A DNA stretch of 64,000 nucleotides from Porphyrobacter sp. (lineage in GTDB: Bacteria; Pseudomonadota; Alphaproteobacteria; Sphingomonadales; Sphingomonadaceae): positions 608,377 through 672,376 of the forward strand of contig JAPZRO010000001.1 of assembly GCA_027531395.1 (NCBI GenBank), given 5' to 3'. The position numbers and the translations under genes were made by a program. The notes under the pieces are model-generated. The model was not told the origin of the DNA. It searched no databases and worked only from the letters and a program-made list of their open reading frames with translations. Of the stretch, positions 12,757-25,035 are shown one piece after another (positions within the stretch are counted from its first letter, which is position 1; every line of letters starts with the position of its first letter).

Positions 12757-12784
12757 AAAAAAGGCGGCGGGATAACCCGCCGCC
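12757..12784 (-). terminator. Rho-independent terminator for the M23 peptidase gene
   Basis: Minus strand reads GGCGGCGGG-TTAT-CCCGCCGCC followed by TTTTTT. It is a perfect 9-bp stem downstream of the 12842..13582 CDS. Confidence 0.88.
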
Positions 12785-20745: not shown

Positions 20746-21111
20746 TTACTGACGGCCGTGGTTCCAGATCACCGCCAGCGTCCCGCTGTGAAAGGCTGCA
20801 ATTGCAAGGTTGCTCAGCACGACCGGATTGGTGAACGAGCCGACAGTGAAGGGCGTCGTCAGCTTGTAGATGACCTGGACCAGCAGCAGCGCCGCAACCA
20901 TCGCGGGCACCGGCTTCAGCAGCAACGCGCCCGAGCAGAGCAGGATCGCCAGATAGACCGAGAGCAGGATGCCTCGCGCCGGTGAAGCCGGGCCAAAAGC
21001 GGCCTCCACCCAGCCCGCGTGCCCCATGATGCTCCCCGTCACGGGCACCAGCACCGCAATGTTGAGCAGCAGCGAGAGGGTGATCATCATCGACATGGAC
21101 GACTGCGGCAT
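20746..21111 (-). CDS. Small multi-pass membrane protein, hypothetical
   Basis: 121-aa ORF with about four hydrophobic segments, directly downstream of thrS (1-nt overlap). Confidence 0.7.
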   Translation of the reverse strand: MPQSSMSMMITLSLLLNIAVLVPVTGSIMGHAGWVEAAFGPASPARGILLSVYLAILLCSGALLLKPVPAMVAALLLVQVIYKLTTPFTVGSFTNPVVLSNLAIAAFHSGTLAVIWNHGRQ

Positions 21112-23105
21112 CAGGCGAGATCCGGCGGGGTGCCCTCGCTACGCAGCATCGCAATCGCCTCCGCGAGCGGCATCACCTTCTGGTGCTCCGCGCCGAGCGT
21201 CCGCACCGCGACGGTGCCTTCCTCGGCCTCGCGCTTGCCGACCACCAGCAGGTGCGGGACCTTCGCGAGGCTGTGTTCGCGCACCTTGTAGTTGATCTTC
21301 TCGTTGCGGGTGTCGGTCTCGACGCGGATGCCGACAGCGCGCAGCTGGGCGGCGACGTCCTCGGCATAGGGATCGGCGTCCGAAACGATGGTCGCCACCA
21401 CCGCCTGCACCGGCGCGAGCCATGCGGGGAGTTTCCCTGCGAAGTGCTCGATCAGGATGCCGATGAAGCGTTCATAGGAGCCGAAGATCGCGCGGTGGAG
21501 CATCACCGGACGGTGCTTTTCGCCATCCTCGCCGATGTAGTGCGCGTCCAGACGCTCGGGCAGCACCCGGTCCGACTGGATCGTGCCGACCTGCCAGGTG
21601 CGGCCGATCGCGTCGGTCAGGTGCCATTCGAGCTTGGGCGCATAGAACGCGCCTTCGCCGGGGAGTTCCTCCCATTCGAGGCCATTGGCGGTCAAAGCAT
21701 CGCGCAGTTCCTGCTCGGCCTTGTCCCAGTCGGCATCCGAACCGAAGCGCTTTTCGGGGCGCAGCGCGAGCTTGATGTCATAGGTGAAGCCAAAGTCGCG
21801 GTAGACGCTATCCGCCAGCGCGATGAAGGCCTGCACTTCGCTCACCACCTGCCCCTCGGTGCAGAAGATATGCGCATCGTCCTGCGTGAACTGGCGCACG
21901 CGCATCAGCCCGTGGAGCGCGCCATGCGGCTCGTTGCGGTGGCAGCAGCCCATTTCGCCGAGGCGGATCGGCAAGTCGCGGTAGGACGTGATCCCCTGCT
22001 TGAACACCATGACGTGGGCCGGGCAGTTCATCGGCTTGATCGCCATCCACGCGGCATCATCGGCGACCTTGGGAGAGGCGACGCCCGACTCTTCATCGAC
22101 GTCCGGAACGATGTCCGGCACCGCGAACATGTTCTGCGCGTATTTCCCCCAGTGGCCCGACTGGGTCCACTGGCGCACGTCCATCAGCTGCGGGGTCTTG
22201 ATCTCACGGTAGCCCGCGCCGTCCATCTTGCGGCGCATATAGGCCTCGAGCTCGCGCCAGATGCGGTAGCCCTTGGGGTGCCAGAAGACGCTTCCGTGGG
22301 CCTCTTCCTGCAGGTGGAACAGGTCCATCTCGCGGCCCAGCTTGCGATGATCGCGCTTGGCGGCTTCCTCAAAGCGCGTGAGGTGCGCCTGAAGCTGCTT
22401 CTTGTTGAGCCAGCCGGTGCCGTAGATGCGGGTGAGCTGGGCATTGTTCTGGTCGCCGCGCCAGTAGGCCCCGGCGGTGCGCATCAGCTTGAAGGCATCG
22501 GGATCGAGCTTGCCGGTCGAGGGCAGGTGCGGGCCGCGGCACATGTCGAGCCAGTCGTTGCCGCTCCAGTAGACCGTCAGTTCCTCGGTGCCGGGGAGTT
22601 CCTTGGCCCATTCGGCCTTGAACACCTCGCCCTCGGCCTCCCACTTGGCGATGAGGTCCTCGCGGCTCCACACCTCGCGGCGCAGCGGCTTGTCGGCGCG
22701 GATGATCTCGCGCATCTTTTCCTCGATCGCCGGAAGATCGTCCATGCCGAAAGGCTCGCGGCTCTCGGGGGCCTTCACGTCATAGTAGAAGCCATCGTCG
22801 GTCGCCGGGCCGAAGGTGATCTGCGTGCCGGGCCACAGCGCCTGCACCGCTTCCGCGAGCACGTGGGCGTAATCGTGGCGGGCGAGTTCGAGCGCATCGG
22901 CCTCGTCGCGGCTCGTCACCAGCGCCAGCTCGGCATCGCCCTCGAACGGCCGGCCCAGATCGCGCAACTCGCCGTTCACCCGCGCCGCGAGCGCCGCCTT
23001 GGCAAGGCCGGGGCCGATCGCCGCGGCAATGTCCGCCGGGGTCGAGCCCTGCGGCACTTCGCGCACCGAGCCATCGGGCAGGCTGATCTTGAGCAGTTTG
23101 GTCAT
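21111..23105 (-). CDS. thrS: Threonyl-tRNA synthetase
   Basis: TGS-domain N-terminus, [43 protein letters not shown] and a class II synthetase core. Confidence 0.97.
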
Positions 23106-23202
23106 GTCTATCGCAATCCGTCTCGTTTGGGCGGCCCTTAAGGCAAAGGACTACGCACCGGAAGAGCGGTGTTGAGCGAAAACCGGTTCGGGAAGGACAC
23201 CG

Positions 23203-23280
23203 CGCCGCCCCGATCCGGGCGGCGGGCTGCCGGGCTTACCCCGCGCGCCGCCGCCCCCGGATGGTAGTCCGGGTGGTGGT
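23203..23280 (-). promoter_or_regulatory. Candidate transcription/translation attenuator of thrS (alternative stems 1:2, 2:3, 3:4)
   Basis: Minus strand. Strand 1 CCCGGA (23268-23273) pairs with strand 2 TCCGGG (23256-23261). Strand 2 extension GGGCGGCGG (23248-23256) is a perfect 9-bp complement of strand 3 CCGCCGCCC (23217-23225). Strand 3 CGCCGCCC also pairs perfectly with strand 4 GGGCGGCG (23203-23210). Confidence 0.75.
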
Positions 23281-23310
23281 GGTCGTGGTGGTGGCGAGCA
23301 GCTTGGCCAT
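23236..23310 (-). CDS. Threonine-rich leader peptide (24 aa) upstream of thrS
   Basis: ATG GCC AAG CTG CTC GCC ACC ACC ACG ACC ACC ACC ACC CGG ACT ACC ATC CGG GGG CGG CGG CGC GCG GGG TAA = MAKLLATTTTTTTRTTIRGRRRAG. 9 of 24 residues are Thr, 7 of them consecutive. Below the ORF-track length cutoff. Confidence 0.82.
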   Translation of the reverse strand: MAKLLATTTTTTTRTTIRGRRRAG

Positions 23311-23317
23311 GGCCGGG

Positions 23318-23346
23318 CTTATAGGCACAAAGGCTTTCGCTGTCAT
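23318..23346 (-). promoter_or_regulatory. Sigma70-type promoter of the thrS leader
   Basis: Minus strand ATGACA (-35, 5/6 to TTGACA), 17-nt spacer, TATAAG (-10). Its expected start site is near the leader ATG. Confidence 0.75.
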
Positions 23347-23361
23347 TACCGAAGGCGCGGA

Positions 23362-25035
23362 CTAGACGGCGAGCTTGCCCGAGCCCTTCTCGCTCGTGAT
23401 CACCTTGGTCCCCGCGAGCCTGGTCGAACGCTGCTTCACGCTGCCGGTGAAGCGGTATTCGGTGGTGGCGCGCGCCGGGGTCAGCTCCACCGCCATGTAG
23501 CCGCGCTGCGCCGTGTCGGCCCACTTGAGCTGGGCATTGGTGCTCACCAGCGCGCTCGCCAGATCGGCCGGCTTGATGAAGCCGAGATAGGTCTCGAACC
23601 CCGGCGAGCTGACCGAGCACACGCCAAGCTCAACACCCACCTTCGCCCCGTCCTGCGCCAGTTCGAAAGCCCAGCCGTTGTGGGTGTCGCCCGCCAGCAC
23701 CAGCAGGTTGGCATCGGCGGCAAGCGCCGCCTTGAACACCCGCTCGCGCGCGGCGGGATAACCGTCCCATGCATCCATGTTCGAGGGCAGGCCGGCCTGA
23801 CTCGCCATCGCCGCCGCCTTCAGCCGCTGGCTGACGAAGTCGGGCAGGCTGCCGCCGATCTGGTCGACGAGGCCGACAGGGGTCTTGAGATTGCCGATCA
23901 GCACCTGCTGCACCAGCACCTGCCACGATGTGCCGCTCGCGGTCGAGGCCTTGAGCCCCTCGGCCAGCCACGCCTCCTGCGCCTGCCCGAGCAGCTGGCG
24001 ATCGGGGTTGGCCCAGTCGCCGTCGCGGAAGCGGTTCAGCGCTTCCATCGCGCCCTGCGGGTCCTTCTGTCCGGCCAGCACCTTGCCCAGATCAAGCTGC
24101 TTGTCGCGGCCTTCGAGACGGGTGTCGAGCTTGAACAGGGTGGCCAGATCGCCGACCTGATAGGCGGCATAGGGATCGTCCGAGACCGGCATCCATTCGC
24201 GGTAGGCGCGCTTGGCGGCGGCCTTGCGCACCTGCCAGTCTCCCTCGGTATCCGGCTGGTGATTCTGGGCGCCGGTTTCGTAGCTGTCGTTGGCGGTTTC
24301 GTGATCGTCCCACACCGCGATCATCGGCAGCACCTGATGCAGACGCTGGCAATCGGGATCGGCGCGGTAGGTGGCGTAGCGCAGGCGGTAATCGGTCAGC
24401 GCGACGATCTCGGTCGCGGGCGCCAGCACACGTTCGGCCACACCCTGCCCCGGATTGGGGTAATTGTCCGCGCCGTATTCGTAGATGTAATCGCCCAGAT
24501 GCACCGCAAGATCGCAGTCATTGGCCTCCACCGCATGGCCATAGGCGTTGAACCAGCCGAAGCCGTAATTGGAGCAGGAGAACACCGCCATGCGGAACTT
24601 CTGCACACCCGCTTCCGGCAGGGTGCGGGTGCGGCCGACGGGCGACTTCGTGCCGTCGGGTGCGATGAAGCGGTAGAAATACCAGCGCCCCGGCGCGAGG
24701 CCGTCGGCCCAGGTCTTGACGCAGAAATCGCTGTCCGGCCCGGCTGCCTTGCCGGTGCTGCCCTCGGCGACCAGCTTGGCGAAATCCTCGGTCTCGCTCA
24801 TTTCCCAGGCGAGATAGGCGGGCGCGTCGGAGACATAGCGGGTCCACAGCATCACCTTGTCGGTGCCCGGCTCCCCGCTCGCGACATTATGGGTGAAGCC
24901 CTTGCCGAAGCCCTGCGCGGCCAGCGGCGCGGCAGCGACGGCCGCCGAGGCGCCCGCAAGCGTGAACAGATTGCGGCGGGTAAGTGCATTGGGGGCCGGA
25001 GCCGGCTGGGCGGCGATATCGTCGGTTTTGATCAT
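23362..25035 (-). CDS. phoD: PhoD-like alkaline phosphatase, Tat-exported
   Basis: Twin-arginine signal LTRRNLFTLAGASAAVAAAPLAAQ, FTHNVASGEPGTDKVMLWTRY, HLGDYIYEYG, VWDDHETANDSYETGAQ and LAGDTHNGW. Confidence 0.92.
   Translation of the reverse strand: MIKTDDIAAQPAPAPNALTRRNLFTLAGASAAVAAAPLAAQGFGKGFTHNVASGEPGTDKVMLWTRYVSDAPAYLAWEMSETEDFAKLVAEGSTGKAAGPDSDFCVKTWADGLAPGRWYFYRFIAPDGTKSPVGRTRTLPEAGVQKFRMAVFSCSNYGFGWFNAYGHAVEANDCDLAVHLGDYIYEYGADNYPNPGQGVAERVLAPATEIVALTDYRLRYATYRADPDCQRLHQVLPMIAVWDDHETANDSYETGAQNHQPDTEGDWQVRKAAAKRAYREWMPVSDDPYAAYQVGDLATLFKLDTRLEGRDKQLDLGKVLAGQKDPQGAMEALNRFRDGDWANPDRQLLGQAQEAWLAEGLKASTASGTSWQVLVQQVLIGNLKTPVGLVDQIGGSLPDFVSQRLKAAAMASQAGLPSNMDAWDGYPAARERVFKAALAADANLLVLAGDTHNGWAFELAQDGAKVGVELGVCSVSSPGFETYLGFIKPADLASALVSTNAQLKWADTAQRGYMAVELTPARATTEYRFTGSVKQRSTRLAGTKVITSEKGSGKLAV

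Follow-up and report, generated by a model that had tools for sequence, protein, structure and literature searches.

The thrS gene of this 64,000-nucleotide stretch of Porphyrobacter sp. DNA (the window) is very probably preceded by a ribosome-mediated attenuator that couples its expression to the supply of charged threonyl-tRNA, a reading to which we assign a probability of about 0.85. Apart from a U-tract terminator, the features that characterize such attenuators are found here: a predicted Thr-rich ORF, a controlled gene that matches the sensed amino acid, mutually exclusive helices that covary among relatives, and Thr codons placed such that a ribosome could mask individual RNA strands. 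A first-pass annotation of the same DNA had centered on a Thr leader peptide followed by mutually exclusive stems and had named conservation and coevolution in relatives as the check; relatives do conserve both Thr run and stems, and the stems coevolve, which supports that reading.

A Thr-rich leader ORF and its promoter

Reading the minus strand from the phoD stop at 23362 to the thrS ATG at 23105, one meets an unannotated ORF of 24 amino acids, located 130 nt upstream of thrS, with its ATG at 23310 and its stop codon TAA at 23238 to 23236. Seven consecutive codons (ACC ACC ACG ACC ACC ACC ACC) form a Thr run, and Thr accounts for 9 of the 24 residues, just as first described; a search of the genome for seven Thr codons gave two matches, one of which is this leader. 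The promoter reported in front of the ORF, ATGACA-N17-TATAAG with 7 nt to the ATG, is also present as described. The elements are as follows.

23318 to 23346, minus strand: promoter P1 (-35 box ATGACA at 23346 to 23341, 17-nt spacer, -10 box TATAAG at 23323 to 23318); motif present in relatives
23236 to 23310, minus strand: leader peptide ORF MAKLLATTTTTTTRTTIRGRRRAG, start probably leaderless; Thr-run ORF at the same site in relatives
23271 to 23291, minus strand: seven Thr codons, the putative sensor, read directly from the sequence
23117 to 23124, minus strand: presumed thrS Shine-Dalgarno region GAGACGGA, read directly; pairing alike in both folded states
21111 to 23105, minus strand: thrS, threonyl-tRNA synthetase (ThrRS), the predicted controlled gene; 664-amino-acid ORF with full-length relatives across genomes of the family

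The P1 motif recurs as [TAG]TGAC-N17-TA in 83 of 113 leader loci, compared with 4% in shuffled sequences, and the spacer is 17 nt in all of them; the end of the -10 box lies 6 or 7 nt from the start codon in 72 of these 83. In Zymomonas mobilis, a member of the Sphingomonadaceae in which leaderless mRNAs are common, the boxes of mapped promoters read TTGNNN and TANNNN and stand 17 nt apart, and the discriminator is most often 6 nt long (PMC7566282). P1 agrees with this TTGNNN-N17-TANNNN consensus and with the 6-nt discriminator. Given the position of P1 and the discriminator length in Z. mobilis, the leader mRNA is probably leaderless, starting at the AUG or 1 to 2 nt upstream; what had been raised as a possibility from one sequence thus gains probability from the promoter position in 72 of 83 loci.

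Conservation of the leader among Sphingomonadaceae

The comparison covers 239 loci for which the sequence upstream of thrS was collected; about 233 belong to GTDB Sphingomonadaceae (Erythrobacter, Porphyrobacter, Croceicoccus, Novosphingobium, Blastomonas, Sphingopyxis, Sphingomonas, and others). In 137 of the 239 loci a short ORF containing a Thr run was scored about 180 to 230 nt upstream of thrS; 125 of these leaders are distinct. Three to five of the 125 are doubtful (L189, L190, and L194), and two real ones went unscored (L161 and L177). Homologous Thr-run ORFs occupy the same position in about 120 distinct thrS leaders of Sphingomonadaceae, from many genera. Within the genus itself the Thr leader is present in all 69 evaluable loci of 70 (L001 to L030 and L140 to L179); L168 was left out of this count because it lies at a contig end, and L161 and L177, missed by the script, are plain leaders by eye. 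A scan of small upstream ORFs for any residue that fills five of eight positions picked out Thr at 130 of 231 loci, against 11 for Arg and 5 for Ala.

The leaders use all four Thr codons (ACC 518, ACT 156, ACG 136, and ACA 42 times), indicating that the amino acid rather than the bases is what is conserved. The residue predicted to be sensed also fits the controlled gene, as Thr codons precede thrS in every case.

On a ThrRS tree (FastTree, N-terminal 450 amino acids), presence and absence of the leader require at least 11 changes, and the leader reaches the deepest Sphingomonas lineages (L088 and L089). This pattern fits an old element that would have been lost repeatedly, and transfer may be another origin of the scattered presence. 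Several relatives are entirely devoid of the leader; it is therefore dispensable, a point that we count against the attenuator reading, and the natural losses also offer ready comparisons for future work.

A covariance model built on 36 diverged leaders, that of the window included, gave one strong match in the genome of origin, at thrS; the next best match there had an E value of 0.05 (G000:C15:579043-579201, minus strand). A search of 395 genomes from the class gave strong matches (E < 1e-20) in Sphingomonadaceae only; the matches outside the family, weak (E of 1.5e-4 or worse) and in many cases covering only part of the model, were taken as chance. No convincing Thr-run leader was found in 40 thrS upstream regions from other alphaproteobacterial families. 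Three loci of such families (L260, L261, and L288) have small Thr-rich ORFs before thrS, for example ...STATTTTTATGG... in L288, which are possibly independent leaders or chance occurrences. A quick look upstream of hom and thrC in the genome of origin, with the longest frame taken as the gene and its start thus doubtful, showed no Thr leader.

Coevolving, mutually exclusive helices

Downstream of, and overlapping, the Thr codons we distinguish the following strands.

23268 to 23273, minus strand: strand 1, CCCGGA, within the last Thr/Arg/Thr codons; 1:2 coevolves (z = -3.5, 2/5000 permutations)
23248 to 23261, minus strand: strand 2, TCCGGGGGCGGCGG; 2:3 coevolves (z = -4.7, 0/5000)
23215 to 23225, minus strand: strand 3, CCGCCGCCCGG; partner of strand 2 or of strand 4 (3:4, z = -4.9)
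23203 to 23210, minus strand: strand 4, GGGCGGCG; 89.5% of cells paired in 3:4
23208 to 23216, minus strand: L4, GGATCGGGG, which spans the 3:4 loop and the start of strand 4; can pair instead with strand 5
23183 to 23192, minus strand: strand 5, CCCGAACCGG, a C-rich, G-poor stretch; L4:5 coevolves
23197 to 23203, minus strand: strand 4b, GCGGTGT; 4b:6 coevolves (z = -10.0)
23166 to 23172, minus strand: strand 6, ACACCGC; pairs and coevolves with 4b

The pairings proposed from the single sequence (CCCGGA/TCCGGG, GGGCGGCGG/CCGCCGCCC, and CGCCGCCC/GGGCGGCG) can all be located in it. To assess them among relatives, we compared within-sequence with between-sequence pairing in 52 leaders less than 70% identical to one another, with z values that are inflated by relatedness in the wrong-pairing controls as well. 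Wrong pairings in the same 52 leaders showed no coevolution (1:3, -0.5; 2:4, -0.5; 3:5, 0.0; 2:5, +2.4; 4:6, +1.4). Two helices are added to the originally proposed stems, 4b:6 and L4:5, the latter joining the 3:4 loop and the start of strand 4 with downstream CCCGAAACC (z = -9.4). Cells in which both sides of a pair had changed numbered 17 for L4:5 (5.0 in shuffles), affecting six of its nine pairs, 18 for 4b:6 (6.8 in shuffles), with C-G to U-A swaps, and 10 for 3:4 (4.0 in shuffles), with G-C to A-U double changes; for each of the three helices, 0/500 shuffles equaled the observed number of double changes. Helix 2:3 is near-invariant, with 95.8% of cells paired and little covariation in its pair counts. 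Its pairing stands as first proposed, and only the register differs slightly: the form kept in the family is CCGGGGGCGG : CCGCC(G)CCCGG, of 10 bp with one bulge.

Helix 1:2 excludes 2:3, 2:3 excludes 3:4, and 3:4 excludes L4:5, which also crosses 4b:6. The helices therefore fall into two sets, 1:2 + 3:4 + 4b:6 and 2:3 + L4:5, so that the mutually exclusive stems 1:2, 2:3, and 3:4 of the first-pass annotation, all of which coevolve in relatives, are extended by L4:5 and 4b:6 into a longer switch. A further downstream pair that it had listed, CACCG/CGGTG (6:7), is present in the sequence and shows no coevolution (z = -0.6); we dropped it, since a separate, conserved promoter-like block accounts better for this stretch (see below).

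Ribosome position and the predicted switch

Stalling must mask strand 1 and termination of translation must mask strand 2 for such a switch to operate, which requires fixed distances between the Thr run, strand 2, and the stop codon. Such distances are found: in 91 of 113 loci the Thr run stops 8 or 11 nt short of strand 2, and in 95 of 113 strand 2 begins 25 nt upstream of where the stop codon ends. One could suppose that GC-rich DNA, which yields many stems and in which ACC repeats arise easily, has produced ORF and stems by chance and without function. We consider this extremely improbable, given that Thr is maintained through all four synonymous codons, that distances are fixed, and that the helices coevolve while the negative controls remain flat.

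We then folded the leaders under ribosome masks that cover 12 nt ahead of the A site, with the stall set at the last Thr codon. Under these masks a stalled ribosome hides strand 1 but not strand 2, and a ribosome at the stop codon hides strand 2. In constrained ensemble folding of the 52 leaders, the probability of 3:4 falls from 0.79 at the stop codon to 0.36 on stalling, that of 2:3 rises from 0.00 to 0.45, and that of L4:5 rises from 0.04 to 0.24 (up in 47 of 52); the exchange between 2:3 and 3:4 runs in the same direction in 43 of 52 leaders. The leader of the window switches more completely: on stalling, 3:4 drops to 0.01 (0.86 at the stop codon) and 2:3 reaches 0.76 (0.00 at the stop codon). 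Helix 4b:6 is weak in both states (0.22 at the stop codon and 0.19 on stalling), which we count against the attenuator reading.

Based on these patterns, we hypothesize that transcription from P1 yields an mRNA, probably leaderless, whose first codon is the AUG of the Thr-rich leader peptide. With charged Thr-tRNA available, the ribosome would pass the Thr codons, reach the stop codon, and cover strand 2, whereupon 3:4 and 4b:6 would form and transcription from P1 would stop before thrS (the OFF state). With Thr-tRNA scarce, the ribosome would stall in the Thr run and cover strand 1, strand 2 would capture strand 3, and the freed strand 4 would capture strand 5 (L4:5) and open 4b:6, allowing RNA polymerase to enter thrS (the ON state). 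Three parts of this scheme are inferred: which way the switch turns, the early end of transcription, and basal expression from P2 (the promoter-like block described below).

The predicted end of transcription in the OFF state

The attribute of ribosome-mediated attenuators that we did not find is an intrinsic terminator, that is, a hairpin followed by a U-tract. No U-tract follows any hairpin in the 113 leader loci or, in the sequence of the window, helix 3:4, in keeping with a caveat raised at the outset; T makes up on average 0.25 to 0.33 of the next 10 nt after the hairpins, compared with 0.16 overall, and at most 12% of leaders have five T in eight positions there. A canonical intrinsic terminator, GGCGGCGGGTTATCCCGCCGCC-TTTTTTCTTG, is present at 12784 to 12763 on the minus strand of the same window, indicating that this genome uses U-tract terminators elsewhere. 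What we claim is therefore attenuation with a non-textbook end of transcription.

Transcription in the OFF state would end by Rho or by an unusual intrinsic signal. Rho appears likeliest, given that the RNA in and around strand 5 is rich in C and poor in G (C minus G of +0.27, with the loop positive in 94% of leaders) and would be exposed only in the OFF state. In a more detailed version, which we put forward tentatively and hold to be somewhat less probable than its negation, the leaderless mRNA would act as a relay of six strands, handing on the effect of the stalled ribosome from 2:3 through L4:5 to 4b:6, and no intrinsic terminator would be needed to end transcription, as a C-rich Rho-loading stretch would be exposed in the OFF state and paired in the ON state. 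If true, it would be the ancestral thrS control of the whole family, lost many times.

The missing U-tract could also be taken to mean that leader peptide and switch are right but that control is translational, the OFF state hiding the thrS ribosome site, an alternative that the first-pass annotation had allowed for. Folding argues against it: the thrS start region is unpaired with a probability of 0.48 at the stop codon and 0.49 on stalling in the 52 leaders (0.42 and 0.43 in the leader of the window), and a start that is equally open in both states speaks against masking of the ribosome site. Further, about 60 nt separate the thrS start from the end of the last coevolving strand, a gap in which insertions are tolerated (L018 and L026). 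We therefore regard translational control as unlikely and retain the transcriptional attenuator as the preferred reading.

Relation to known control systems

Known controls of thrS are an operator bound by the gene's own product in Escherichia coli and T-boxes in Firmicutes. A T-box riboswitch, which would read uncharged tRNA-Thr directly, would suit the gene on these grounds, but no Rfam T-box match was obtained at E values up to 10, and the Thr run and its spacing would be left unexplained; we give this reading next to no weight. The Rfam scan of the window and of the leader returned nothing above cut-off, the best match being Thr_leader (RF00506) at 12.6 bits, far under its cut-off of 55.

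Autoregulation by ThrRS through a tRNA-like operator in the leader mRNA would concern the same gene, and in E. coli thrS is indeed controlled from its leader in this way, with ThrRS binding anticodon-like hairpins and blocking the ribosome (PMC11088916). Such an operator involves no leader peptide and predicts no translated Thr run, no fixed strand spacing, and no alternatives of 2:3 and 3:4, yet all of these are seen here, and masking of the thrS ribosome site does not depend on the state. It is thus a very improbable explanation. UUGU loops in some leaders had prompted us to consider a tRNA-Thr-like operator, which we rejected because the loop is not kept, GC or CC replacing GU in many leaders.

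The thrS leader is therefore set apart from the T-box, the Rfam Thr_leader, and the E. coli thrS operator. By analogy, it would work like the leader-peptide attenuators of thrABC and pheST, with whose defining features it agrees except for the U-tract. The thrL leader of enterobacterial thrABC (RF00506) also combines a Thr-rich leader peptide with mutually exclusive hairpins and Thr-tRNA sensing (predicted here), but it controls biosynthetic genes rather than a synthetase gene, includes Ile codons, and ends in a U-tract terminator. The pheMST attenuator of E. coli places the pheST synthetase operon under leader-peptide attenuation by the charge of its own tRNA, the arrangement predicted here for thrS, but with Phe codons, four strands, a U-tract terminator, and no sequence relation to the thrS leader. 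Closest in lineage is trpL/rnTrpL of Sinorhizobium meliloti, an alphaproteobacterial attenuator that is transcribed from the leader AUG onward (PMC7298713), as predicted for the thrS leader; it differs in sensing Trp for trpE(G) and in its depicted terminator hairpin, which gives rise to a stable small RNA.

We found no description of a thrS leader peptide among the papers available for comparison. Lopatovskaya et al. (2010, Mol Biol 44:128; cited in PMC4833913), reportedly a comparative treatment of attenuated amino acid and aminoacyl-tRNA operons, and Vitreschak et al. (2004) may contain earlier predictions of some thrS attenuators.

A translated Thr sensor would be a third solution to thrS control, present in a large environmental family, and would imply that control of this synthetase has been rewired between lineages. 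The leader would also allow attenuation to be tested on a leaderless mRNA that lacks a U-tract, and the defined alignment and covariance model make annotation possible in hundreds of genomes.

A conserved promoter-like block between the putative attenuator and thrS

One further conserved element separates the attenuator from the ribosome site of thrS.

23136 to 23164, minus strand: P2, promoter-like, of the type CTT-N19-TTAAGG

In the form CTT-N19-(A-containing box ending in G), the spacing of this block is exactly 19 in 113/113 scored leader loci. The block is also found in relatives that lack the leader (L119, L232, and L234), and its spacing is constant with and without the leader (loci L119, L232, L234, L062, L067, and L137). 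In Sphingomonas and Sphingopyxis it takes the form CTTGCC...GGCATAAG or GGCAAAGG, and in Sphingomonas lacking the leader it forms an inverted repeat, CTTGCC...GGC-AT-AAG, whose bulge is AT, which makes an operator possible. From these sequence patterns, we read P2 as a basal thrS promoter or an operator that is independent of the attenuator and probably lies outside the RNA switch. A candidate hairpin near the ribosome site (7:8; weak, z = -3.3) was reassigned to this block, since the same block persists at constant spacing where the leader is absent.

In L018 and L026 an extra hairpin, CTTCCCGC...GCGGGAAG, is inserted between the attenuator and thrS, and L153 has an insertion of about 110 nt there; the strands are intact in all three. 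In L034 and L152 strands 3 to 6 are missing, and the Thr leader ORF, still present, runs directly into the P2 block, a natural deletion that could serve to test the role of the hairpins.
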